64,000 nt of DNA from the NCBI RefSeq assembly GCF_007751035.1, contig NZ_CP036433.1:5251001-5315000 (forward strand). The letters run 5' to 3'. Each line of letters begins with the position of its first letter. Within the stretch, counting starts at the first letter, position 1. This DNA comes from Lignipirellula cremea. GTDB lineage: Bacteria > Planctomycetota > Planctomycetia > Pirellulales > Pirellulaceae. Position numbers and translations under genes: made by a program. The notes under the pieces are model-generated. The model had not been told where the DNA came from, ran no database searches, and worked only from the letters and a program-made list of their open reading frames with translations. Of this stretch, positions 50,643 to 64,000 are shown piece after piece.

Positions 50643-52652
50643 TTAATACTGGTTCTGAGCACTCCGGTCGCCGAAGCCGGCGTCGCCGCCAAACGACTGC
50701 CGCACCGTACGTGCTTTGACTTCGTCGTGCAAGCGACGGATCGCCTCGTCGACGCTCATCGCTCCCAGATCGCCGTCAATACGATCCCGCACCGAGACAG
50801 TCCCGGCTTCCTGGTCCCGCGGTCCGACGACAAACATATAAGGCGTTAAATCGATCTGGGCGTCGCGAATCTTGGCGCCAAGTTTTTCCGACCGGTAGTC
50901 GCCCGTCGCTCGCAGTCCAGTCGCCCGGGCCGTGCGTTCGATCGACAGGGCGTAGTCCGATGACTTCTCGCTGACCGGCAGCACGCGGACCTGTTCCGGC
51001 GCCAGCCACAGCGGGAACGCTCCGGCAAAGTGTTCAATCAGCACGCCAATGAACCGCTCCATCGAACCCAAAGGCGCGCGGTGAATCATCACCGGCTGAT
51101 GCCGGGAGTTATCGGCTCCGATGTATTCCAGGTCAAAGCGTTCCTTGCTGGGCAGGTTATAGTCCAGTTGCACCGTGCCCAGTTGCCATTCGCGGCCGAG
51201 ACAGTCCGTGACCACGAAGTCGGCTTTCGGCCCGTAGAAGGCTGCTTCCCCTTCTTCGGCTTCGGCCGTGATCCCCAGGCTGCGGCAGACTTCGACAATG
51301 GCGTCCTGGGCGCGTTCCCAGTTCTCTTCATTGCCGACGTACTTGTCGCTTTTGGGATCGCGGAAACCCAGACGCACGCGGTAATCCTTCAGGCCCAGCG
51401 TATCCAGCACAAACTGGGTCATTTCCAGACAGGCCCGGAACTCGCTGGCGACCTGGTCGTCGGTGCAGAAAATATGGGCGTCGTCCTGGGTGAAACCGCG
51501 GACGCGGGTCATGCCGGAGATTTCGCCCGACTGTTCGTAGCGATACACGGTGCCAAACTCCGCCAGCCGCAAGGGCAGGTCGCGGTAGCTGCGCGGTTTG
51601 GCCTTGTAGATCATGGTGTGATGCGGGCAGTTCATCGGCTTGAGCAGATACCGTTCGTCTTCGCTCATAACGATTGGCGTGAACTGGCTGTCGCTGTAGT
51701 AGGGGAAGTGGCCCGAGGTTTCGTACAGCTCGACCCGGCCAATGTTGGGCGTATAGACGGGCTCGTAACCGCGGCGATCCAGCTCGTCCTTGACGAACGT
51801 TTCCAGCGTGCTGCGAATCCGGGCGCCTTTGGGCTGCCACAGAATCAGGCCGGAACCAACCAGCGGGCTGATGGTGAACAGATCGAGCTTTTTCCCCAGC
51901 ACGCGGTGATCGCGTTTTTTGGCCTCTTCAATCCGCTGCAGATGTTCTTCCAGATCTTTGTCATTAAAGAACGCGGTCGCGTACAACCGCTGCAGCTGGG
52001 CGCGGGACTGGTCCCCTTTCCAGTAGGCTCCGGCCACCGATAGCAACTTGAAGGCGCCAATGGCGGCGGCGCTGGGAATATGGGGCCCGCGACAAAGATC
52101 GATAAACTCGCCCTGGCGATAGAAGCTGACCGTGTCATGTTCGGCCAGGCCTTCTTCGATATGTTCGACCTTGTACTTTTGATCCAGGCCGCGGCAAATT
52201 TTCAGAGCTTCGGCCGACTCGGCTTCCGAGCGGACGAAGGGTTCGTCCTCGGCGATGATCTTCCGCATTTCTGCTTCGATCGCCGGGAAGTCGTCCTCGC
52301 TGAGGGAATGCTCCAGCCCAAAGTCGTAGTAAAAGCCGCCTTCGATGGTCGGCCCGAACGCCAGCTGCACCCCTTCAAACAGCCGCATCACGGCCCGCGC
52401 CATAATATGGGCGCAGCTATGCCGCATGACGCCCAGCGCCTCGGGGTTTTTGTCGGTGAACAGCTTCAGGGCGACTTCGCCCGATCTGGGCAAGGGATAG
52501 TCGAGCCCGACGATCGTGCCATCGACTTCCGCGGCCAGGGCCGCTTTTGCCAGTCGCGGGCCGATCGTGGCGGCGACATCGGCGGGGGTCACTGACTCGG
52601 CAAACTCTTTGACGCTTCCATCAGGCAAAGTGACGTTGAGCATTGGATCCAT
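50643..52652 (-). CDS. thrS: threonyl-tRNA synthetase
   Basis: About 669 residues from ATG 52652 (GAG about six bases upstream); an ATG three codons further on is possible. The order is TGS domain ([23 protein letters not shown]), editing domain ([15 protein letters not shown]), class II core with [29 protein letters not shown] and the motif 2 stretch [15 protein letters not shown], and a C-terminal anticodon-binding domain ([17 protein letters not shown]...). It loads tRNA-Thr and edits mischarged serine. A promoter candidate lies upstream (52753-52780). Confidence 0.96.
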
Positions 52653-52655
52653 CAA

Positions 52656-52987
52656 TTTCTCGGAGAATTATGGGGGAACGGACGTCTGCACAAACGACGT
52701 CTTCACACATCCACCCACAAGCGGCGCCGCGGTTTCCCCGCAACGGAGTCAAGTATAGGCGCAACCAGGCGCCCAACAAAAGGACACTTTCGCGGCAACC
52801 GGGGTTCGGCGGAACCCTTCGCTCCGCGTCCCGGTCGCCTGGCCCGGTCCGGCCGGAAGGCGCTGGGGATTTTCTCCCCCCCTTAACTGGCCTCCAGGGC
52901 GACGATCGGCTATCATCCTCAAAGGTAGATCGGATGGGTACTCGACCGCATCCCCGCCTGCGACCTCAGGTTAAGGAACTCCCTGCG
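52656..52987. other. divergent intergenic region between thrS and floA
   Basis: 332 bases. A promoter candidate for thrS is listed separately. A TATCAT box at 52911-52916 might serve floA, but no -35 lies 16-18 bases upstream. No small gene was supported. Confidence 0.4.
52753..52780 (-). promoter_or_regulatory. candidate sigma-70 promoter for thrS
   Basis: On the minus strand TTGTTG (52775-52780) and TATACT (52753-52758) are spaced by 16 bases, about 100 bases before the thrS start. Confidence 0.45.
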
Positions 52988-53965
52988 ATGGAAGGTCTCG
53001 TTTTACTCGCCGTTATCGGCGGCGTTCTGGGTTTTGGCTTGTTGATGCTGGCAATCGTTTTTATGCGATACGGCGCCAAATGGTTCCAGGCATTCATGTC
53101 AGGCGCCGATGTCAGCATGTGGAGCCTGGTCGGCATGGATTTTCGCCAGGTGGATATTGCGACCATGTTGGCGACCAAAATTAAAGCAGCCCAGGCCGGC
53201 CTGGATATCAGCCACGGCGGCGTCAGCACGACCCGCCTGGAAGCCCATTACCTGGCCGGCGGCAGCGTGGTGAATGTGGTGCAGGCGATCATCGCCGCCC
53301 ATCGCGCCGGTATCGACCTGGACTTCGACCGGGCGGCCGCGATTGACCTCGCCGGTCGCGATGTGGTCGACGCCGTGCGAACCAGCGTGCTACCCAAAGT
53401 GATCGACTGCCCCGATCCCCGTCGCAGCGGCAAAACGACCCTCAGCGCCATCGCACGTAACGGCGTGGAACTACGCGTGCGAGCCCGGGTGACGGTTCGC
53501 ACCAACCTGGAACAGTTGATCGGCGGAGCCACCGAAGAGACGATCATCGCCCGCGTGGGCGAGAGTATCATTTCCTCGATCGGTTCGTCCGACACCCACC
53601 TGCAGGTGCTGGAAAATCCCGACCGCATCTCCAAGGCGGTGCTCGCCCGTGGACTCGACGCCCATACGGCGTTCCAGATCGTGTCGATCGACATCGCAGA
53701 TATCGACGTGGGCGAGAACATCGGCGCCCGACTGCAGGCCGACCAGGCCGAAGCCGACACCCGTGTCGCCCGGGCCGAAGCCGAACGTCGACGTGCGGAA
53801 GCAGTCGCCGTGGAGCAAGAGAACAAGGCAAAGGTCGCCGCCAACCGCGCCCAGGTGGTGCTGGCCGAAGCGGCCGTTCCGCGGGCGATGGCGGACGCCT
53901 TCCGCAAAGGCCGCCTGGAAGTCGCCCCGCAAGACGGCTACGCCGATCCCGGCACGACCGCCTGA
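52988..53965 (+). CDS. floA: flotillin-like protein FloA
   Basis: 325 residues, the normal FloA length, from ATG 52988 (AAGGA about 12 bases upstream); the open frame reaches back to 52643 but the extra sequence is not FloA. An N-terminal hydrophobic hairpin ([23 protein letters not shown]) is followed by the SPFH-like region ([31 protein letters not shown]) and the C-terminal Ala/Glu-rich coiled coil ([31 protein letters not shown]). FloA organises ordered membrane microdomains and is anchored to the cytoplasmic face. Its usual partner NfeD is not next to it. The FGE-like gene follows 85 bases on. Confidence 0.95.
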
Positions 53966-54050: not shown

Positions 54051-54830
54051 ATGCTCACTCTGCTCGTCGTCGCCATGTCGCTCTCTGCTGATCCGACACC
54101 TGCGCAAACCCAGCTGCTGCAGACCTTTCATGCCGAGTTCATCCCCATTACGCCCGGCGAGAAAGATTTCCCCGCAACCCTCCAGCGCACTCTGGGAGAC
54201 GGCAAAACAGTCGAGATCCGATTTGAGCAGCCGTTCTCGGTGGCCAAATACGAAGTGCCGCAGGATCTGTTCAAGGCTGTCACCGGGAACGACCCCAGCC
54301 GCTGGAAAGGGGACCGCAACTCGGTCGAAGAGGTCAACCGCGACGAAGCGATCGCCTTCTGCCGCCAGGCGACCCAGTTGATGCGGTCCGCCAAACTGAT
54401 TGGCGCCGACGAAGAAATTCGCCTGCCGACCGAAAGCGAATGGGAGTACGTCGCCCGGGCCGGAACCGACACCATCTACTCGTTCGGCAACAAGGTCGCG
54501 GACCTGGACGACTACGCCTGGCACACCGGCAACGCCGCCGGGAACGATCCGCCGGTGGGGACCAAAAAGCCGAATCCCTGGGGGCTGTACGACATCCACG
54601 GTTACCTGTGGGAATGGTGCGCCGATGACTGGTCCAGCGAAACCGCAAAGCTCCCCGTCGCGGGCCAAGCGGTGCAATCCGCAGGCGCCGCCCACGGCGT
54701 CCTGCGCGGCGGCAGCTGGAAGGACAAGGCAGAGAAACTCACCAGCTACTATCGCTACAAAGCCGCCACTGATCTACGCGACGACGCCGTCGGCTTCCGC
54801 TGCATTCTGGCCCGCACCGCCAAAAACTAA
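54051..54830 (+). CDS. secreted FGE-sulfatase-domain protein, probably non-catalytic
   Basis: 259 residues. A short signal peptide (MLTLLVVAMSLSAD) leads into a formylglycine-generating-enzyme-like fold: KYEVPQDLF, the LPTESEWEYVARAG signature, GLYDIHGYLWEWCADDW and VLRGGSW...VGFRC. The two copper-binding/catalytic cysteines of true FGE (in the RGGSx...C...C segment) are absent: the stretch after RGGSW is KDKAEKLTSYY. Such proteins bind protein or sugar, or act in other reactions (the EgtB or lectin-like branches of the superfamily). It is adjacent to floA on the same strand. Confidence 0.85.
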   Translation: MLTLLVVAMSLSADPTPAQTQLLQTFHAEFIPITPGEKDFPATLQRTLGDGKTVEIRFEQPFSVAKYEVPQDLFKAVTGNDPSRWKGDRNSVEEVNRDEAIAFCRQATQLMRSAKLIGADEEIRLPTESEWEYVARAGTDTIYSFGNKVADLDDYAWHTGNAAGNDPPVGTKKPNPWGLYDIHGYLWEWCADDWSSETAKLPVAGQAVQSAGAAHGVLRGGSWKDKAEKLTSYYRYKAATDLRDDAVGFRCILARTAKN

Positions 54831-55173
54831 GAGACGCGCTGGGCTTTATTTCCTGAACAGCGGTCGGCCGGTCAGATTTTTTCACGTCCTGCCAGATCCG
54901 CGACCCCCTGTCTCCTGGCCCGGGAAACTGCTGCGCCGATATCCGTGCGGCCGGGAAACCGTCTCCAATAGAATGACACAATGACAACCGGTCGGTAATT
55001 GTGTTCTGACAGGGGGCGTGTGCTAAGATCCCCTCTGTTGCGTCCTGACAACGGGACGCATTTCGAAGCCGTTTTTTCCGTTCGCCTTCCAGCCCAGCAG
55101 ACCGTGTCGACGGCGTGATCCCGCCTGGCCGTCTTCGCCTGTTTGTTTCCGCCGAACCCCGACGAGGACCCGC
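54831..55173. other. intergenic region upstream of the VWA operon
   Basis: 343 bases, no supported gene. A TAAGAT box (55024-55029) with TTGTGT (54999-55004) is a weak promoter candidate; the 19-base spacing is long. No terminator was seen after the FGE-like gene. Confidence 0.35.
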
Positions 55174-57318
55174 TTGGAGTCCCTGTTCCGCAATCCCTGG
55201 CTGCTGCCGGCTTTGGCCGCGCTGCTGTTGCCGCCGCTGATCGAGTGGTTGTTCCGCCGTCGCAAAAAGCAGGTGGAACTGCCGACCATTCGTTTTCTGC
55301 TGAACAACCAGGAGCAGAAAAAGGTCAAGCGACAGGATCGCATTCTGCTGTTGTTGCGTATGCTGGCGATCGGGCTTGTCGTGTTCGGCGTGGCCCGGCC
55401 GTTGTGGCAGCGGGGCTGGATGGGGGCCGCACCGGATCGGAACGTCACGATCCTGCTTGACGGCACCGGCAGCATGAGCCAGCAACGTGATGTATCCGTC
55501 GCTTTCGCCATGGCGCAAAAGAAGGCCGCCGCCGTCGCCCGCGCACTCCCGGCCGGCACGCCTGTGACGGTGCTGCTGCTGGGGCATCGGCTGGAAGTGG
55601 TGCTGGAAAACGAAACCGACCTGCACACGGCCGCCGCCCGGATCGAAGGCTTGCGGCCGACTTCCGGCGCAGCCCCCATGGCGACCGCCCTGGCCTGGGT
55701 CCGTGATCATACGGCCGACCAGCAGGAACGCTCAGAGCTTTATGTTTTTTCCGACTTCCAGAAACACACCTGGATACAAGCCGGTTCCGCCGCCGCCCCC
55801 GCATTGCTCACCGGCCTGGAAGAGAAGTGCGAGACGTTCCTGATCGATGTCGGCGGCGAGCATGCGTTTAACTATGTGGCGACGCAGCTGCGGCCCGAGG
55901 AGTTCGCCATGTCGGCCGGCATGCCGGTTACCTTCCAGACGCTCATTGAGTGCCGCGGCACGCCGCCGGCGGACGCCAAAGCGTCGGTCACGTTCCTGGT
56001 CGACGGCGTCAAGAAAGATGTACGCGAAGTCACGCCAGGCGAGCAGCCGGTCGTGCTGGAGTTCGCCCATCGCTTTCCCGCCGCGGCCGAGTACCTGGTC
56101 GAGGTGGTCGTCGAGGGGGACAACCACCGTCTCGATAATCGCCGGATGTACCTGTGCCGCGTCCCGGAAGAAGTCCAGGTGCTGTTGCTCGACGAAACGG
56201 CCGATGGCCCGGCAGAACCGCAAAGCCTGTTCCTGGCCCGCAGCATCCGTCCCCCGACGCATGCAGCGCTTGAGAAGGTTTCGCATTTTCAGGTCAAAAC
56301 GATCGTCCCGGCCCGCATCTCTTATGAGAACCTGAGCGAGTATGCGGCCATCCTGCTGACAGGAACGCGTCAGTTGACGCCCGGTCTGGCGGCCCAGCTG
56401 GAAACGTACGCGGCCGACGGCGGCTCCCTCTGGATGTTCATGGGCGACACAGTCAACCTGTACGACTACAACCGCCTGCTCTACCGGGACGGCGAAGGCG
56501 TCATGCCGTGCGCGCTGGCGGAGAAGGTCGCGCCGCAGGATGCCGCGGCGAACATCTATCCGCAGTACGGCGACAGCAACCATCCGGCCCTGGTGCAACT
56601 GGCCCGCCTGGCGTCTGACGATCAAACGGCCGTCCTGAAGTATGTCCATATCGACAGCCAGCAGATGGCGGCCTCGGCCCAGGTGGTCGTTTCGCTCAGC
56701 AACGGCGAGCCCGCGATTGTCGAGCGTCCCTTCGGTCGCGGGCGCTCGCTGCTGCTGAACACGTCCGCCGATGCGGGCTGGAGTCGGTTGCCGGCGCTGG
56801 CGGAGTTCGCCATCCTGGTGCAGGAACTGCTCCGGTATGTGGTGGGCGAGCCCGATGCGGCCGTCAACCTGAACGTGGGGGAAACGTTCGAGCAGCCCGT
56901 CTATATCAGCACGCAACATCTGCTGCTGCGCTACCCGGACGGCTCCAAAGAACGCCTGCGGCCCCGCCGACGCAGCGCCGACCAGGACGAATTTGAGGTC
57001 CTGTTCGACAATACCACGCAGCAAGGGCTGTACGAGATTGAAACGATCGAGGAAGTGCTTCCCCGGAGGCGGTTCGTCGTGAATCCGTCCGCGGCCGAGT
57101 CGGATCTGTCCCGCTTGAGCCAGGCCGACTTCCGCGAAACGTTCCCGGCCGGCGGCTGGAGCTGGATTGGCTCGGGCGTGTCGGTGGCCGACATGGCGGC
57201 TGACTTGCATACGGTGACGGAAATTTCGCCGTGGATCTTTGGGGCGCTGGCCGCGATGCTGGCGATCGAAACCTTACTGGCCTGGCGGTTCGGCCGCCGG
57301 CGAGGGCTAACGGCATGA
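55174..57318 (+). CDS. BatA/VWA membrane protein
   Basis: 714 residues starting at TTG 55174, supported by GAGGA five bases before it. It has the N-terminal BatA-type segment (NPWLLPALAALLLPPLIEWLFRRR with a second membrane helix near 65-80), then a von Willebrand factor A domain with a nearly complete MIDAS site (LLDGTGSMS) and further strand patterns, followed by a large periplasmic part and a final membrane helix (about 690-708). Proteins like this sit beside MoxR ATPases in the Bat (aerotolerance) clusters; no MoxR or DUF58 gene is in view. The next gene overlaps by 4 bases (ATGA), so expression is coupled. Confidence 0.87.
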   Translation: MESLFRNPWLLPALAALLLPPLIEWLFRRRKKQVELPTIRFLLNNQEQKKVKRQDRILLLLRMLAIGLVVFGVARPLWQRGWMGAAPDRNVTILLDGTGSMSQQRDVSVAFAMAQKKAAAVARALPAGTPVTVLLLGHRLEVVLENETDLHTAAARIEGLRPTSGAAPMATALAWVRDHTADQQERSELYVFSDFQKHTWIQAGSAAAPALLTGLEEKCETFLIDVGGEHAFNYVATQLRPEEFAMSAGMPVTFQTLIECRGTPPADAKASVTFLVDGVKKDVREVTPGEQPVVLEFAHRFPAAAEYLVEVVVEGDNHRLDNRRMYLCRVPEEVQVLLLDETADGPAEPQSLFLARSIRPPTHAALEKVSHFQVKTIVPARISYENLSEYAAILLTGTRQLTPGLAAQLETYAADGGSLWMFMGDTVNLYDYNRLLYRDGEGVMPCALAEKVAPQDAAANIYPQYGDSNHPALVQLARLASDDQTAVLKYVHIDSQQMAASAQVVVSLSNGEPAIVERPFGRGRSLLLNTSADAGWSRLPALAEFAILVQELLRYVVGEPDAAVNLNVGETFEQPVYISTQHLLLRYPDGSKERLRPRRRSADQDEFEVLFDNTTQQGLYEIETIEEVLPRRRFVVNPSAAESDLSRLSQADFRETFPAGGWSWIGSGVSVADMAADLHTVTEISPWIFGALAAMLAIETLLAWRFGRRRGLTA

Positions 57319-59678
57319 TGACCTCGCTGACATCGCCGCAGGGGCTGCTCTGGATCGGCATCGCCGCCGCCGCGTTACTTGTTTTCTACACCTTCGTGCT
57401 GGTCCGCGAAGGACGCTCCGCGGCCCGCCTCAACGGCGGCCAGACCGCACTGCTGTGGCTGCTGCGGCTGGGCGTGGCGGCGATTGCCCTGGTCGCACTG
57501 GCTCGGCCTGCCGTTCAGCATGTGCGCACGGAAACCCGGCTGCCGACGGCGCCGATTTTGATCGACGAATCGCTCAGCATGAACTTCCCCGCCAGTCGTG
57601 AGAATCCCCTGCTGCAGTCCGTTCCTGTCAGCGAACGCACCCGTTTCCGCGGAGCCCAGGCGGCCGTGGAGGCGTTGCAGAAAAAGCTCAGCGGCACGCA
57701 TCGCGTGCGGGTGTACGCCTTTTCCGACTCGCTGCAGTTGCTGAAAGAGGTTCCCTTCCGTGCCGATGAGCAGCAGCCGGCGCTCTCCGCCCAGGACATT
57801 TTTGCGGATCATGAGCAGCCGACGGGCGCCTATTCCAATGTGGGCGATGCGGTCAGCGAGGTGCTGCGGGATCTGTCGGGCGAGAAGGTCGCCGGCATGA
57901 TCGTGCTCAGCGACGGACGTCAGACGGGCGGGCTCGATCTGCAAAGGGCGGCCGACGACGCGGAAGCGGCGAAGGTTCCCGTTCATACGATCACGCTGGG
58001 AACCGAGTTCCCGCTCCGCGACTTGCGGATCGACGAAGTGCTCGCCGGCGCCGAGGCCAGCCTGGGCGATGTGCTCACCTTTCATGGGAAGCTCAACAAC
58101 CAGATCAGCTCGTCCCTCACCACGCGACTACTGCTGGAAGAGAAAGACGGCGAGAACCCTGACGCCGAGTATCGCGAGGTGGCCGCCCGGAACCTGCAGC
58201 TCCTCCGCGGCCCTCACCAGACCTCACTGGCCGTGATCCCCGAGACCGAAGGCGTCCGCCGTTTTCGCCTGTCCGTGCCGGAACAGGCCGATGAAGTCGA
58301 TTTGGAAAATAACGTCGTGGAGCTGACCGTCAAGGTCGTCAAACGGACCCTCAAGGCGCTGCTGATCGCCGGCGAACCTTCCCGCGAGTTCCATTACATC
58401 ACGCCCGCCCTGCTGAGGGATCCGATCATCGAGCTTTCCTGTTTTCTCCAGGCGGCCGACGTCGACTACACGCAGCAAGGAAATGTGGTCATCGAACGAC
58501 TGCCGGCCACGGTGAAAGAATGGAGCCAGTACGACGTGGCGATCCTGCTCGATGTCGACCCCAACGGGATCACCACGCAGCAACTGGCCGGGCTGGAGAA
58601 CATGGTCAGCAACGGCGGCGGCCTGGTGATCATCGCCGGCAGAGCCAACGGCCTGGCCCGCCTGGTGCAAGTGCATGCGGCCCGGATCCGCGGCCTGCTG
58701 CCGGTGGAGGTCGACAAGAACTTGCACCTGAACCACGATCAGACTTTTGACAAACCGTTTCATATCAGCCGCACCTCACAAGGCCGCAATCACCCCGTGC
58801 TGATGGCGTCGGCCAATGGCGAACTGAACCAGCAGACCTGGGACACCTTTGGCGAGCTGGACTTCTACTGGCGGCATCCTGTGCAGGGAGTTAAACCGAA
58901 GGCGATCGCCCTGCTGGAAGAAAGCGACGCCAGCAGCGCCGGCGACGGCGTGCTGATGGCGATCCAGCGGTATGTCGACGGGGCCGTCTTCTTCGCCGCC
59001 GTCGACAGCATGTGGCGCTGGCGATACCCGCACGAAAGTTACGACTATGACCGCTTCTGGTCGCGCGTGGTGCGTTACCTGGGCGAGGCTCGCCTGCTTG
59101 GAGCCCAGCAGCAGGTTTCCCTGGCGACCGATCGTCGATCTTATAGCCCGGGAGAAGACGTGGCGATTGAGTTGCGCGTGCTGGACCCGGCGCTCATGTC
59201 CCAACTGGCGGGAGAGCCCATCTATGTGACGATCGCCAGCGAAGGCGCCGAGGAATACAAAACGCCGCTGCTGCCCGACGACCGCGGCGAGCAGTTGTAC
59301 CGCGGTGAGTATCGCGCCCGGCGACTGGGCACGATGACCCTGCGGGCCCAGCAGGCAGCTCCTGACGCCGACTCGGAAGCGAAACCGCTGTTTGATGTGA
59401 GCCATGCTTTCGACGTACGCATGCAATCGCTGGAGAACGCCGATACGAGCGCTGATCTGGCGGCGATGCAGCAACTGGCCAAGGGGACCGGCGGGCTCTA
59501 TCTGGATTATCACACGCTGGATCAATGGGAAACTGTCGCGGCCGCGCTGCCCTCCGATCCGCAAATTCTGACCGAGACCATTACCGCCGAAGTCTGGGAC
59601 GGGTGGCTGCTGCTGGCGTTGTTCGTCGGCCTGGTTTCCTGCGAGCTCAGCCTGCGAAAATGGTGGGGACTACTATGA
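57315..59678 (+). CDS. second membrane VWA-domain protein
   Basis: 787 residues, starting at ATG 57315 inside the stop of the previous gene (4-base overlap). Two N-terminal membrane helices (about 10-30 and 45-65) precede a VWA-like domain whose MIDAS is degenerate (DESLSMNF), then a long extracellular or periplasmic beta-rich region and a last membrane helix near the C-terminus (LLLALFVGLVSCEL). The layout resembles the previous product, so the two may form a membrane complex. The C-terminus overlaps the start of the toroid gene by 4 bases. Confidence 0.85.
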   Translation: MMTSLTSPQGLLWIGIAAAALLVFYTFVLVREGRSAARLNGGQTALLWLLRLGVAAIALVALARPAVQHVRTETRLPTAPILIDESLSMNFPASRENPLLQSVPVSERTRFRGAQAAVEALQKKLSGTHRVRVYAFSDSLQLLKEVPFRADEQQPALSAQDIFADHEQPTGAYSNVGDAVSEVLRDLSGEKVAGMIVLSDGRQTGGLDLQRAADDAEAAKVPVHTITLGTEFPLRDLRIDEVLAGAEASLGDVLTFHGKLNNQISSSLTTRLLLEEKDGENPDAEYREVAARNLQLLRGPHQTSLAVIPETEGVRRFRLSVPEQADEVDLENNVVELTVKVVKRTLKALLIAGEPSREFHYITPALLRDPIIELSCFLQAADVDYTQQGNVVIERLPATVKEWSQYDVAILLDVDPNGITTQQLAGLENMVSNGGGLVIIAGRANGLARLVQVHAARIRGLLPVEVDKNLHLNHDQTFDKPFHISRTSQGRNHPVLMASANGELNQQTWDTFGELDFYWRHPVQGVKPKAIALLEESDASSAGDGVLMAIQRYVDGAVFFAAVDSMWRWRYPHESYDYDRFWSRVVRYLGEARLLGAQQQVSLATDRRSYSPGEDVAIELRVLDPALMSQLAGEPIYVTIASEGAEEYKTPLLPDDRGEQLYRGEYRARRLGTMTLRAQQAAPDADSEAKPLFDVSHAFDVRMQSLENADTSADLAAMQQLAKGTGGLYLDYHTLDQWETVAAALPSDPQILTETITAEVWDGWLLLALFVGLVSCELSLRKWWGLL

Positions 59679-60874
59679 GAATTCCAACCGCCTGGAGCGC
59701 CCTGCTTCTTGCCTTGCTGGCGACCATCTGGCTGGGCTATGCCACGGGTCCCTTAGCGCAAGAACCGGCGTCAGCCAAGACGGCCAATGCCGACGCGGAA
59801 GCAGAGGCCGAGGCGCAGCGTCTGCTGGCCGAACAGGAACGGCGCCGCGGCCCCACTTCCCCCGGGCTCGATCCGGCCTTCCTGGTGCTCCCCAGGGCGC
59901 CGCAGGCCAGCGAGATGGCCCGGGAACTGCTTACCGACGACGTCGTACAAATGAGCCAGCAGGCGCTCGACTTCATCGCCGCCCAGCAGGATCCCGACGG
60001 CGGCTGGTCGGATACGCAATTCGCCTCCAACACAGGCGTCACCGCGCTCTGCTGCCTGTCGCTGATGGCCGAAGGCAGTCGTCCCCGGGCCGGTCGTTAT
60101 GGCCGGCAACTGGATCGCGGTCTGGAATTCCTCCTCAAAAACGTCCAGGCCAGCGGCGCGATCGCTGGCAAAGGGAGCAATCCGTACGGCCCCGGCTATG
60201 AACATGCGCTGTCGACCCTGGCGCTGGTCCTGGCGTACGGCGACATGCCCTGGCGACCCGAACTGCGGGACGTTATCTCCCAGGCCGTGCAGCTGCTCCT
60301 GCGTAGCCAGCGGCTCGACGGGGGCTGGCGATACCAGCTCAGCCGGGAAGGGCACAGCGATATGTCGGTCACGGCGAATGTGCTCTGGGTGCTGCGGACC
60401 GCCAAGAAGGCCGGCTTCACCGTACCGCGGGAGGCGATCGGCCAGGGGGTCGCCTTTGTGGAGAAGTGCGCGCTGCCCGACGGCCACTTCCGTTATCGGG
60501 CCTTCGGTATTGAAGCGGCCCCCAGCCTGGGCGGGACCGGCGTGATTGCTTTGTCCAACAACGGGCAGCTGGATCATCCGCTGATTGCGCCGGCGCGGGA
60601 TAAGATCGTTTACGAGTATGGCCGCTACACCATCGCCGACCTGCAGGAGCGGCGGTACTTTGTCTTCGGCTGTTTTTACGCCAGTCTGGCCGTTTACAGC
60701 TGCGGCGACGAGTACTGGATCCCCTGGTTCAAAAAGGCGTCGACCGTGCTGGCGGCCATGCAGCGGACCGACGGCGATTTTCCCGATCAGCTCGACAATC
60801 ACGTGTACCCGACTGCCATGGCGGCCATGGTGCTGCTCGCTCCCCGCGGTTACCTGCCGCTGTACGAGCGTTAG
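59675..60874 (+). CDS. secreted alpha-alpha toroid protein (squalene-hopene-cyclase-like repeats)
   Basis: 399 residues from ATG 59675, overlapping the previous stop by four bases. A signal peptide (SALLLALLATIWLGYATGP) leads to helical repeats with the QW-type pattern: QQDPDGGWSDTQFASNTGVTALCCL, QRLDGGWRYQLSREGHSDMSVTANVLWVL and QRTDGDFPDQLDNHVYPTAMAAMVLLA. These are typical of the terpenoid cyclase/protein prenyltransferase toroid. The catalytic DxDD motif of squalene-hopene cyclases is not seen, so catalysis as a terpene cyclase is unlikely; a binding role is more plausible. It completes the three-gene VWA unit. Confidence 0.85.
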   Translation: MRIPTAWSALLLALLATIWLGYATGPLAQEPASAKTANADAEAEAEAQRLLAEQERRRGPTSPGLDPAFLVLPRAPQASEMARELLTDDVVQMSQQALDFIAAQQDPDGGWSDTQFASNTGVTALCCLSLMAEGSRPRAGRYGRQLDRGLEFLLKNVQASGAIAGKGSNPYGPGYEHALSTLALVLAYGDMPWRPELRDVISQAVQLLLRSQRLDGGWRYQLSREGHSDMSVTANVLWVLRTAKKAGFTVPREAIGQGVAFVEKCALPDGHFRYRAFGIEAAPSLGGTGVIALSNNGQLDHPLIAPARDKIVYEYGRYTIADLQERRYFVFGCFYASLAVYSCGDEYWIPWFKKASTVLAAMQRTDGDFPDQLDNHVYPTAMAAMVLLAPRGYLPLYER

Positions 60875-60946
60875 ACCAGGCGATATTTGCGTTCAAGTGT
60901 TCCCCGCGACTCTGACAACCAACCGTCAAAAGATCCGGCAATTCGA

Positions 60947-63886
60947 ATGAAACGAATTCCTAACCGCCTGAAGACAACCTTGCTCCCGCGATGGACCTTT
61001 CGTCGCGCCGCAGGGCTGCTCGCACTGACGATGCTGGCCAGCCTCGTTGCGTTTGACGGTCGTTCTGCAGTCGGCGGCGAAGCGGAGGAAGAGTTCCGCG
61101 TCAAACGGGAAGAACGTTTCGAATTCTCCCAGCCGCCGGTGATCGCGGTCCAGGGCGACCGGGTTGAGATCCGCTTCACTGCAGCCGCGTTCTGCGATGC
61201 AACGGTCGCGATTGAGGACGCCGAAGGGAACATTGTTCGGCACCTGGCTTGCGGCCTGCTCGGCTCGTCGGCCCCTGCGCCGTTCCAGCCATCGTTGTTA
61301 TCGCAAGTGCTGTTGTGGGACGGCAAGAACGACCAGGGCCGGTACGTGGATCAGCGGGACAATCTGATCGTGCGCGTCTCGCTGGGACTCAAAGCGCAGT
61401 TCGAACGCACGTTGTACTGGGAGCCGAAGAAGCGTATCGGAAAAGGGAATTCACCGCTAATCGCTCCACGGCCCGAAGGGGTATATGTGTTTGAAGGGGA
61501 AGGCGTCGATCACATGCGACTGTTCGAGCACAACGGCGACTACGTCCGCACCGTGTATCCATTCCCGGCCGAAAATCTCGAGGAAGTGGTCGGCCTGGAC
61601 CGGCAGATTTTCCCGCAGTCGGGCCGCCTGTTGCCGGTGAAGCACGGGCCCAAACATCACAGCACGCTGCTCACCTCGGGCGACAACATGCTGAAGTCGC
61701 CCGGCAAGTACGGCTCGGCCGCAACGGCCATGGCGGTCCACGGCGACCGCATCCTGCTGGCTGGCGTCAAGGTGAATCGACTCTCTACCGTCGGCGGTTC
61801 TACGGGGAAGAATCTAGAGGGACCGGTCGTTAGTTTCGAGCAGCAACCAGCCAGCTCGACCGCCAACGCCGACCTGACCGCGGCGCCGCGGTCGGCCGCC
61901 CTGAGTCCCGACGGACGCTGGCTGTACCTGACCGGCTATGTCTGGAACCGAGGTTATCCCCGCGGCCATGCCTGGCTGCATGGCGTGGCGCGGCTTGACC
62001 TGCAGCACGACGACGCGCCGCTGGAAACGTTTGCCGGCCGCCTGGAGCGGGAAGCCGACGGCGTGGATCCGGGCCAGTTCCGCTGCCCCACCTCGGTCGC
62101 CTGCGATGCGGCAGGGCAGGTGTATGTGGCCGACTACATGAACGACCGGATCCAGGTTTTCGCTCCCGACGGCAAGCATTTGAAGTCGATCACCCATTCC
62201 AGGCCGAGCGTGCTGCAGGTCGATCCCGAATCGGGCCAGATTTACGTGTTCAGCTGGTTCCTGATCAACCGCTTCCTTAAGAATACGGACCGCATCCCGG
62301 CGCAGTACGCCCGGCTGGGACCGCTGGCAGATCCTAGAGTGCAGTTCACGGCTCCGCTGCCGCTGAATAACTACAAGGATCGCATTGGCCTGCGCTGGAC
62401 CGGTCTGGAGTACAACGCGGCCGTCGATACGTTCGCCCAGCCAGCCGCCATCTGGCTGGTTCCCGGCAAGCCCGGCACGACGGAGCAGCTGCAGATTCTC
62501 CGCGGTCTGGGAGGCGGCGAGGCCGACGCCAGGCTGGCCCATCTGCGAATCCTGGAAGAAGGCCCGGAAGAGCTCGTTCTGCGGCGAGACTTTGGCGAAG
62601 AGACAGCCCGCTCGGTTGTCCGTACTAAACCGCCCGTTATTTCCCGCCAGCGGCTATACGTCAATCCGGCCAGCGGAAAACTGTACCTGGGCGAAGGCGA
62701 CTCGGGCGTCAACAAGTCTTTCGAGGAACTGCTGGAGATCGACCCCAACACGGGCGACATTCGCGTGGTTCCCCTGCCGTTCACAGCCGAGGACATCTGC
62801 TTTGGCGTCAACGGGGCCGCGTACCTGCGGACCGATACGATCGTCGGCCGGTACGACAGTCGCACCTGGCGGGAGATCCCCTGGGATTACGGCGAGGAAC
62901 GCACCCAGGAAGGTTTCGATCCATCAGTCAAGTCGGCTTCGCTGGTCTCCGCCCTGGTCCTGCCTGCGGAAGGACGCCCGGCCTACTTTCACATGGGCGG
63001 TATGTGCATTTCGCCGCGAGGAGAACTGGCGGTCGCCTGCTTTAACACAGGGAAACCGTTGGACCGCCGAGAGTTCCAGTCCGATGGCAGCCTGTCCAAA
63101 CGCTGGGCCTCCACGGCAGGCCGGAAGTATCTGCCGAGCTTGTATCCGGGCCGCGTGCGGTACGGCGAAGTGCACGTCTGGGATGTACACGGCCAGCTGA
63201 TCCACGAGGACGCCGTGCCCGGCCTGGGAGCGACGGACGGCATCGCCATCGACAAACAGGGCAATCTCTACGCCCTGGCCTCGGCCCATCGGTTGTTCGG
63301 GGGCGAACCGTACTTTTTACCCTGGACGGAAACGCTCTTCAAAATCTCGCCGTCGGCAGGCAAACTGGTCGCCGGCAGCGATCGGGCGAACATTCCCGCC
63401 GAGAAACACAACCTGCCCGAGCGTTCGCCCGACATGGCCAACCACACGCTGCAGAAGGTCTGGATCGAAGGCGCCGACTGGAAGTACGGCGGCGTTGGTT
63501 TCGGTTCGCAAACGGGCGGATGCGTCTGCTGGAACGCCCGCTTCGCTCTCGACTATTTCGACCGTGTGTTCGCCCCCGAGGTTGACCACTTCACCGTGGC
63601 GGTGCTGGATTCGTCCGGGAACCTGCTGCTCCGCATTGGCGACTATGGCAACGTCGACGATGGCCTGCCGCTGGTCAAACAGGGCGGACCAGCCGACCCG
63701 CGATCGATCGGCGGTGATGAAACGGCCCTGTTCCACGCGGCCTATGTGGCCAGCCATACGGATCACCGCCTGTTCATCGCCGACGCCGGCAACCGCCGGA
63801 TTCTCAGCGTGAAGCTCGACTACCACGCCACCCGCCGCCTGCCGTTGTCTTCCCTGCCTGCCCCTGCCGTCGCTCCTGGAAAGTAA
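60947..63886 (+). CDS. large secreted NHL/propeller-like protein
   Basis: 979 residues from ATG 60947, with a long N-terminal Arg/Lys stretch before a hydrophobic segment (AAGLLALTMLASLVAF) that may be a signal-anchor or signal peptide. It contains propeller strands like NHL/SMP-30 proteins (GQVYVADYMNDRIQVFAPDGKHLKSI, GNLYALASAHRLFG, HRLFIADAGNRRILSVKL) spread over the length, at least seven recognisable blades. No catalytic residue pattern was found. It follows the toroid gene by about 70 bases on the same strand and is probably co-transcribed. Confidence 0.82.
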   Translation: MKRIPNRLKTTLLPRWTFRRAAGLLALTMLASLVAFDGRSAVGGEAEEEFRVKREERFEFSQPPVIAVQGDRVEIRFTAAAFCDATVAIEDAEGNIVRHLACGLLGSSAPAPFQPSLLSQVLLWDGKNDQGRYVDQRDNLIVRVSLGLKAQFERTLYWEPKKRIGKGNSPLIAPRPEGVYVFEGEGVDHMRLFEHNGDYVRTVYPFPAENLEEVVGLDRQIFPQSGRLLPVKHGPKHHSTLLTSGDNMLKSPGKYGSAATAMAVHGDRILLAGVKVNRLSTVGGSTGKNLEGPVVSFEQQPASSTANADLTAAPRSAALSPDGRWLYLTGYVWNRGYPRGHAWLHGVARLDLQHDDAPLETFAGRLEREADGVDPGQFRCPTSVACDAAGQVYVADYMNDRIQVFAPDGKHLKSITHSRPSVLQVDPESGQIYVFSWFLINRFLKNTDRIPAQYARLGPLADPRVQFTAPLPLNNYKDRIGLRWTGLEYNAAVDTFAQPAAIWLVPGKPGTTEQLQILRGLGGGEADARLAHLRILEEGPEELVLRRDFGEETARSVVRTKPPVISRQRLYVNPASGKLYLGEGDSGVNKSFEELLEIDPNTGDIRVVPLPFTAEDICFGVNGAAYLRTDTIVGRYDSRTWREIPWDYGEERTQEGFDPSVKSASLVSALVLPAEGRPAYFHMGGMCISPRGELAVACFNTGKPLDRREFQSDGSLSKRWASTAGRKYLPSLYPGRVRYGEVHVWDVHGQLIHEDAVPGLGATDGIAIDKQGNLYALASAHRLFGGEPYFLPWTETLFKISPSAGKLVAGSDRANIPAEKHNLPERSPDMANHTLQKVWIEGADWKYGGVGFGSQTGGCVCWNARFALDYFDRVFAPEVDHFTVAVLDSSGNLLLRIGDYGNVDDGLPLVKQGGPADPRSIGGDETALFHAAYVASHTDHRLFIADAGNRRILSVKLDYHATRRLPLSSLPAPAVAPGK

Positions 63887-63896
63887 AGGGATATCC

Positions 63897-64000
63897 ATGC
63901 CGAATCCAAACCGATCCCGCACGCCAGGCCCACGGACGCTGGCGATCTTTTTGACGGCCGCCTGCCTCGCATGTTCCGCCGGACAAACGTCGCGTGCGGC
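63897..64000 (+). CDS. exported protein, 5' end only
   Basis: The frame starts at ATG 63897 (AAGGG upstream) and runs off the window. About 34 residues are visible: a Pro/Arg-rich start followed by a hydrophobic stretch (TLAIFLTAACLACSAG), a lipoprotein-like signal with a possible lipobox (LAC). Nothing can be said of the mature protein. It lies 10 bases after the NHL-like gene, so it probably shares its operon. Confidence 0.6.
   Translation, partial: MPNPNRSRTPGPRTLAIFLTAACLACSAGQTSRA

Follow-up and report, generated by a model that had tools for sequence, protein, structure and literature searches.

What task is shared by three consecutive genes of Lignipirellula cremea that overlap one another by four bases and encode two membrane proteins with VWA domains and an exported alpha/alpha toroid? 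The trio occupies positions 55174 to 60874 of the window, that is, of the whole 64,000-base stretch analysed here (C1:5251001-5315000), and the host genome consists of one contig, C1, of 9,565,229 bases. We tentatively regard the trio as the front end, seated in the inner membrane and the periplasm, of a 12-gene Bat-like MoxR/VWA envelope machine that may mature exported NHL-propeller proteins as its candidate clients, a reading drawn from sequence comparisons to which we give a little less than an even chance.

The first part of the answer lies beyond the end of the window. The preliminary description had observed that Bat clusters normally include MoxR and DUF58 genes, had reported both as absent, and had held that a MoxR gene a short distance outside the window would speak against its reading. 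The absence is true inside the window only: the trio begins a run of 12 closely spaced or overlapping genes, all on one strand, which spans 26 kb, ends at window-equivalent position 81075 (C1:5332075), and contains two MoxR genes and a DUF58 gene. The apparent lack arises because the window edge cuts the run in two. After the toroid, the run encodes NHL1, NHL2, a large membrane protein, an NPCBM protein, a putative lipoprotein, MoxR-1, MoxR-2, DUF58, and a PQQ/TPR protein, with additional ATGA overlaps before the NPCBM and the PQQ/TPR gene. MoxR-1, MoxR-2, and DUF58 lie at C1:5324223-5327270 on the trio's strand, so that the counter-evidence named in the preliminary description is present; MoxR-1 starts 9.2 kb past the window end and 12.3 kb after the toroid stop. 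Of the 20 matches to PF07726 in the whole genome, the window contains none, and two follow shortly after its end (179.9 and 215.4 bits for the two MoxR of the run); the DUF58 protein scores 162 bits against PF01882. Export-type N-termini are predicted for the toroid, the NPCBM protein, the PQQ/TPR protein, and the NHL proteins, and MoxR-1, MoxR-2, and DUF58 are predicted to have no hydrophobic export segment. No match to the BatD family was found among the 12 genes (Pfam, E 0.01), and "DUF4175" as the identity of the large membrane protein was supported by neither Pfam nor NCBIfam. Elsewhere, the host genome appears to hold many separate MoxR operons, as 18 PF07726 matches exceed the cut-off and mostly adjoin genes matching the DUF58 profile.

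Gene 1 (55174..57318, plus strand, TTG start, 714 aa) encodes a BatA-type protein with a VWA domain, as assigned by Pfam (BatA PF07584, 58.8 bits with a cut-off of 25.9; VWA_2, 38.6 bits) and NCBIfam (two_anch TIGR02226, 47.6 bits); hydropathy indicates two N-terminal membrane helices and one C-terminal helix, with the VWA domain between them predicted to be periplasmic. Gene 2 (57315..59678, plus strand, 787 aa) encodes VWA2, in which a VWA domain (VWA_2, 24.5 bits, slightly below the cut-off of 27) is joined to DUF7408 (PF24157, 27.6 bits), again with two N-terminal and one C-terminal membrane helices. Experiments on the Borrelia BatA protein BB0173 revealed this same topology, with three helices in the membrane and the VWA domain in the periplasm (PMC5700661). 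Gene 3 (59675..60874, plus strand, 399 aa) encodes the toroid, which is recognised by SQHop_cyclase_C, hydropathy, AlphaFold2, and Foldseek and carries an N-terminal hydrophobic segment at residues 3-21. From helix hydropathy and flanking positive charges, both VWA domains and the toroid are predicted to lie in the periplasm.

The two ATGA overlaps (57315..57318 between genes 1 and 2 and 59675..59678 between genes 2 and 3, both on the plus strand) are present as originally described, and the three-gene order, for which a search in Planctomycetota had been proposed, recurs. Orthologues of the toroid with 50-75% identity were found in 14 named loci. These come from metagenome-assembled records whose titles name Planctomycetota or Phycisphaerae, Kiritimatiellae in two cases, and an uncultured bacterium in one; eight further loci from the same scan with at most 33% toroid identity were kept separate. 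With genes in the fetched loci called by a crude open reading frame picker and hidden Markov models (HMMs) built from those same loci, VWA2 immediately precedes the toroid in all 14, and BatA precedes VWA2 in all 12 whose contigs reach that far. A start codon stands at the 4-base-overlap position between VWA2 and toroid in 12 of 15 cases (window plus 14 loci; the exceptions are L143, with a 1-base overlap, L149, and L151) and between BatA and VWA2 in 11 of the 13 loci covering both genes (exceptions L150, with a 1-base overlap, and L152). As ATG and GTG are interchanged at these starts, it seems to be the overlap itself that is conserved. In this comparison of the window with the 14 loci, the conserved overlaps look like more than chance, and they support coupled translation of the trio. 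A stoichiometric complex, which had been read directly from the overlaps, is thereby favoured in part: the coupling is kept in orthologous loci down to 50% toroid identity, which speaks for a common complex, while the complex itself is only inferred.

The suggestion that toroids found mostly away from VWA genes would argue against a functional link applies to the toroid class in this genome but fails for the orthologues of gene 3, all 14 of which stand directly behind VWA2. Among the 14 toroid matches in the host genome, four have a BatA, VWA2, or large-membrane-protein gene within about 10 kb on the same strand, one is accompanied by a VWA2-like gene in the opposite orientation, and nine have no such neighbour. 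The same genome holds a second, rearranged cluster (L173 / L193, C1:8.07-8.09 Mb, minus strand) with toroid, BatA, VWA2, a partial match to the large membrane protein, a 1705-aa protein, MoxR, and DUF58. The nearest complete match to the window cluster occurs in the class-mate genome G638, where BatA, VWA2, toroid, a 266-aa open reading frame, NHL, NHL, large membrane protein, NPCBM, lipoprotein, MoxR-1, MoxR-2, and DUF58 follow in the same order, with the 266-aa frame after the toroid as the one addition.

Within the host family, the window cluster is of a different kind from the standard cluster. At E 1e-40, the toroid is present in 24 of 41 family genomes (the host's own included), and apart from the window gene all matches have at most 36% identity. 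In the 23 other toroid-bearing genomes, the fetched stretch contains VWA2 in 15 cases and the large membrane protein in 19. Four have neither: L078 and L081 are cut by a contig end near the toroid, L183 has no cluster gene, and L188 has NPCBM only. The usual standard order is PQQ/TPR, MoxR, DUF58, BatA, VWA2, large membrane protein, a gene of about 250 aa, toroid, and NPCBM. Both kinds share homologous MoxR, DUF58, BatA, VWA2, large membrane protein, toroid, and NPCBM, but the toroids of the standard cluster are only 30-36% identical to that of the window and do not come next after VWA2, its MoxR reads GVPGLAKT (4/4 read), and no NHL gene was seen in the fetched stretches. In a VWA2 tree built by a quick method, the window and the orthologous loci form one branch apart from the standard cluster (Shimodaira-Hasegawa-like approximate likelihood-ratio test, SH-aLRT, 100); two records titled Kiritimatiellae (L146 and L148) carry the cluster inside this planctomycete branch, possibly through mislabelling or transfer. 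The BatA/VWA2 overlap occurs in 5 of 10 standard clusters. The MIDAS-type motif differs as well: gene 1 reads DGTGS (55459..55473, plus strand), and DxTxS is found in 11 of the 12 orthologous BatA read (window plus named loci, without the BatA of L142, which is cut by the contig start; L147 has DGSAS), whereas 13 of 14 standard-cluster BatA (>350 bits) have DxSxS and L154 has no such motif by pattern. Gene 2 carries DESLS, of the type DxSxS, at 57564..57578 (plus strand).

The second part of the answer concerns the NHL proteins, a family of about 1000-aa NHL-propeller proteins that is carried by all nine genomes with VWA2 orthologues. NHL1 follows the toroid (60887..63886, plus strand; NHL, 33.2 bits; the first start is TTG at 60887, with an ATG at 60947) and is a beta-propeller protein with an export-type N-terminus and a candidate client; NHL2 starts at 63897 on the same strand and is cut off by the window end at 64000, beyond which the run continues. 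A search with the window NHL1 (E 1e-60) hit 8 of 294 Planctomycetota genomes, all among the nine with VWA2 orthologues, and none of the other 285. The toroid profile (E 1e-90) matched 9 of the 294 genomes, VWA2 orthologues lie in the same nine, and in the ninth, G184, the NHL proteins were found by profile; of four other genomes tested beside it, three gave no match at E 1e-10 and G014 gave one weak match. The three phylum searches of 294 genomes each are taken as one draw, since the genome handles shown agree. Full agreement of two independent labels of nine in 294 has a chance of about 2.5e-17, which is overstated since genomes are related, and the nine span seven families. In the host-class sample, the NHL family occurs in 5 of 397 genomes, in each case together with cluster genes on a single stretch; four of these (window, G638, G578, and G593) show VWA2 and toroid themselves, and the contig of G629 begins at the large membrane protein.

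It is this coincidence that bears on an explanation in which the locus is a generic Bat-like envelope-integrity operon that stabilises the envelope under stress, has no dedicated client, and carries the NHL genes as passengers sharing its history. The content of BatA, DUF58, MoxR, and VWA fits such an operon, in Rhizobium leguminosarum the shape of the cell and its envelope are influenced by MoxR/Bat operons (PMC3893208 and PMC5700661), and the related standard cluster of the host family exists without NHL genes in the fetched stretches. Yet VWA2, toroid, and NHL are present together in nine of the 294 genomes, which belong to seven families, and all five NHL carriers of the 397-genome class sample carry cluster genes, so we consider the explanation unlikely, if still worth keeping in sight.

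Among 39 NHL proteins (window NHL1 and the copies of 850-1400 aa from the fetched stretches, shorter or longer ones having been dropped), a CxC pair (C879/C881 in window NHL1) is invariant in all 39, and 32 have a strongly hydrophobic N-terminal stretch by a 13-residue test. NHL1 and NHL2 fail the 19-residue hydropathy threshold, with the 13-residue hydrophobic core present (2.4 and 2.3; residues 44-56 in NHL1). Counted as match rows at E <= 1e-100, of which fragmented assemblies may give two per gene, the nine genomes hold 3, 20, 24, 5, 23, 5, and 16 NHL copies, 42 (G116), and 1 (G184). The paralogues do not group by genome (26 changes in the tree against a shuffled mean of 26.4), which indicates that recent in-genome expansion is not the main pattern, three copies of G050 excepted. 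NHL genes lie in or beside cluster genes in the window, in G638/L140, and in L142, L144, L150, L151, L113, L118, L246, L248, and L250; the stretches of L139 and L141 end just past the toroid.

A number of observations weigh against a machine dedicated to NHL clients. No NHL gene occurs in the fetched stretch of the orthologous clusters L143, L145, L146, L147, L148, L149, and L152, and with several clusters thus lacking a nearby NHL gene, the clients are tied to the machine by co-occurrence more than by adjacency. In copy-rich genomes, the majority of NHL matches are found outside the cluster, and their varied neighbours include genes for aldehyde dehydrogenase, GntR regulators, and sialidase-like proteins. 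The best toroid match of G116 is part of a long protein with no VWA genes nearby, and the contig that carries its VWA2 stops before a possible toroid, which leaves only eight of the nine genomes with a clear toroid orthologue in the setting of a cluster; G184 has a single strong NHL row. The structure model of NHL1 is poor (predicted local distance difference test, pLDDT, 68), with generic propellers and other repeats as its Foldseek matches, and the phylum and class searches scored two to six candidates per genome only. Weighing both sides, we hold the client relation of the NHL proteins, as suggested by sequence, to be a tentative proposition that falls somewhat short of an even chance.

The neighbours of the scattered NHL genes revealed no single pathway. 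GntR regulators with a sugar-binding-protein-like domain stand beside NHL genes in L110, L144, L220, and L224 (the L220 copies by similarity only), which hints at ligand-controlled expression. In L121 / L122 (G050:C14), five NHL matches are interspersed with large PQQ/malectin and polysaccharide-deacetylase proteins, and a third NHL-family copy of the host genome (L215, C1:7242539-7245421) has genes for an outer-membrane efflux protein and a TPR protein in its vicinity.

One alternative is a surface glycan-handling complex, in which a polysaccharide would be bound by the toroid and the NPCBM protein, the secreted NHL proteins would act on glycans or bind them, and the VWA proteins would anchor these at the membrane. 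The run does encode an NPCBM domain, some NHL genes have as neighbours the GntR regulators with sugar-binding-like domains, a polysaccharide deacetylase, or proteins resembling BNR sialidases, and the Foldseek neighbours of the toroid model include, in addition to AprG, the carbohydrate-active (alpha/alpha) barrels GH76, MmpH, and YihS. Against this, above the Pfam cut-offs NHL and SGL are the only families matched by the NHL proteins and SQHop_cyclase_C is the only one matched by the toroid, with nothing in NCBIfam (a search that excluded NHL2), the neighbours of the NHL genes are mixed, and two MoxR ATPases are left unexplained; we judge a glycan role improbable, though not far-fetched.

For the toroid itself, the evidence argues against catalysis. 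Its model (mean pLDDT 81.7; predicted template modelling score, pTM, 0.78) has squalene-hopene cyclase 3sqc as the top Foldseek match (E 1.4e-6), and SQHop_cyclase_C (PF13243) scores 35.3 bits. With squalene-hopene cyclase and other class II terpene cyclases it shares the alpha/alpha toroid fold, by model, and repeats of the QxxDGGW type, but it differs by a single toroid domain, an export-type N-terminus, and DxS[VI]T in place of the DxDD motif. That DxDD is lacking, as had been stated, holds up: in an HMM alignment, DVDDT of wild-type squalene-hopene cyclase 1gsz aligns with D229-M-S-V-T233 of the toroid (a stretch that is weak on its own, 4.2 bits) within the motif GGWRY...DMSVT (60320..60373, plus strand), and this register is also consistent with a squalene-cyclase-like protein encoded in the host genome, which reads GGWGW...DSDDT. 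GGWRY followed by DxS[VI]T is found in 50 of 51 distinct related toroids (>350 bits; the exception is L136), a count that was de-duplicated since some loci are one gene under two ids (for example, L144 and L115/L125). Judging from these alignments, the proton-donor motif is lost and its site is conserved as something else, and binding is likelier than cyclisation as the role of the toroid. An ordinary squalene cyclase was accordingly rejected as its identity, the DxDD position reading DxS[VI]T while the cyclase-like protein of the same genome keeps DSDDT. The broader possibility that the toroid is an active enzyme modifying a small molecule of the periplasm, whether in the manner of a terpene cyclase or of a sugar enzyme such as AprG, could draw on squalene-hopene cyclase and AprG as fold neighbours and on several polar residues that are invariant over 19 toroids, but the near-uniform replacement of DxDD makes it highly doubtful.

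The two MoxR proteins form an unequal pair. In all seven clusters read, MoxR-1 has GxPGLGR[TS], with the Walker-A Lys replaced by Arg, and MoxR-2 has the canonical GKT; the P-loops of the window cluster are GLPGLGRT and GVPGLGKT. The bpMoxR model of Pfam matches MoxR-2 with 45 bits and MoxR-1 with 27.7 bits (cut-off 27), and MoxR, VWA, and beta-propeller proteins do stand together in one locus, but a MoxR-vWA-beta-propeller conflict system is very improbable here, for according to PMC7159879 the vWA component of these ternary systems strictly bears the propeller and the P-loop is often GXXXTAKS, whereas neither VWA protein of the window cluster has a propeller domain (Pfam), both P-loops are different, and the propellers are encoded separately, with export-type N-termini. 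Membership in the bpMoxR systems was rejected on the grounds of the missing vWA-propeller fusion and GXXXTAKS P-loop.

Compared with other known systems, the cluster combines familiar and unfamiliar parts. The Bat (Bacteroides aerotolerance) operon comprises MoxR, DUF58, BatA, BatB, a TPR protein, and BatD. Shared with it are MoxR, DUF58, a VWA protein with the BatA N-terminal domain, another membrane protein with VWA, and a cluster protein that contains TPR repeats; the window cluster differs in that a BatD domain is absent and that toroid, NPCBM, PQQ-propeller, and NHL proteins as well as a second MoxR, one of the two with an altered Walker A, are added. Of the features that mark a Bat/MoxR (BatI) operon, BatA on VWA, MoxR, and DUF58 are thus found and BatD is not, and by analogy we take the cluster to work like a Bat cluster without filing it as a complete one. 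Methanol dehydrogenase is a beta-propeller, and mxa encodes VWA proteins. The candidate clients here differ in being NHL proteins with up to dozens of copies, not a PQQ dehydrogenase, and toroid and NPCBM proteins are not known to be part of mxa. The known MoxR/VWA maturation systems are each, as far as is known, tied to one enzyme. With mxa and NorQ/NorD, the cluster shares the presence of MoxR with VWA proteins, which in the known cases are needed for enzyme maturation or activation: PMC3893208 describes MoxR proteins that mature specific complexes, including methanol dehydrogenase, and PMC9976466 a MoxR/VWA pair, NorQ/NorD, that is required for non-haem iron insertion. The Bat operon is described in PMC5700661.

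Base composition offers no support for horizontal transfer, as the cluster (63-64% guanine plus cytosine, G+C) is within the genome range (62% for window positions 1-54800 and 55 to 64% for 14 other stretches); the patchy distribution alone does not settle transfer versus loss. Promoter and terminator scans of positions 54700-64000 gave about as many sites as shuffled sequence. Upstream of the trio, the window encodes a formylglycine-generating-enzyme-like (FGE-sulfatase) protein (54051-54830) and a FloA flotillin-like protein (52643-53965).

In the maturation machine that we favour, the MoxR ATPase pair and DUF58 would drive conformational changes from the cytosolic side, BatA and VWA2 would carry these across the inner membrane to periplasmic partners, and the toroid, docked to the VWA domains, would serve as a periplasmic adaptor without enzymatic activity. 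Exported NHL-propeller proteins would thereby be matured, be it by folding, by metal or cofactor loading, or by delivery, and one machine could serve several to dozens of clients. Their invariant CxC pair is a candidate site, as a lead only, of whatever is loaded or formed. A dedicated one-to-many biogenesis system, composed of a MoxR heteropair, a BatA/VWA2 transducer, a cyclase-toroid adaptor, and an expandable NHL repertoire with invariant CxC and up to 42 strong rows per genome, is conceivable, but we put it forward with clear reservations.

The whole cluster with its companion NHL family is a more interesting object than the trio, for which the preliminary description was right in what it observed and half right in how it interpreted it. 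Among the open-licence PubMed Central (PMC) papers listed, no report of a toroid in a MoxR/Bat cluster or of this NHL family turned up. If the proposed reading is true, a terpene-cyclase fold would have been reused as a non-catalytic adaptor, together with a paired MoxR of which one member is altered. Bat/MoxR operons are widespread, and their exact role is described as unclear in PMC3893208 and PMC5700661; a presence that tracks one exported family would make the question of what Bat machines target directly testable.

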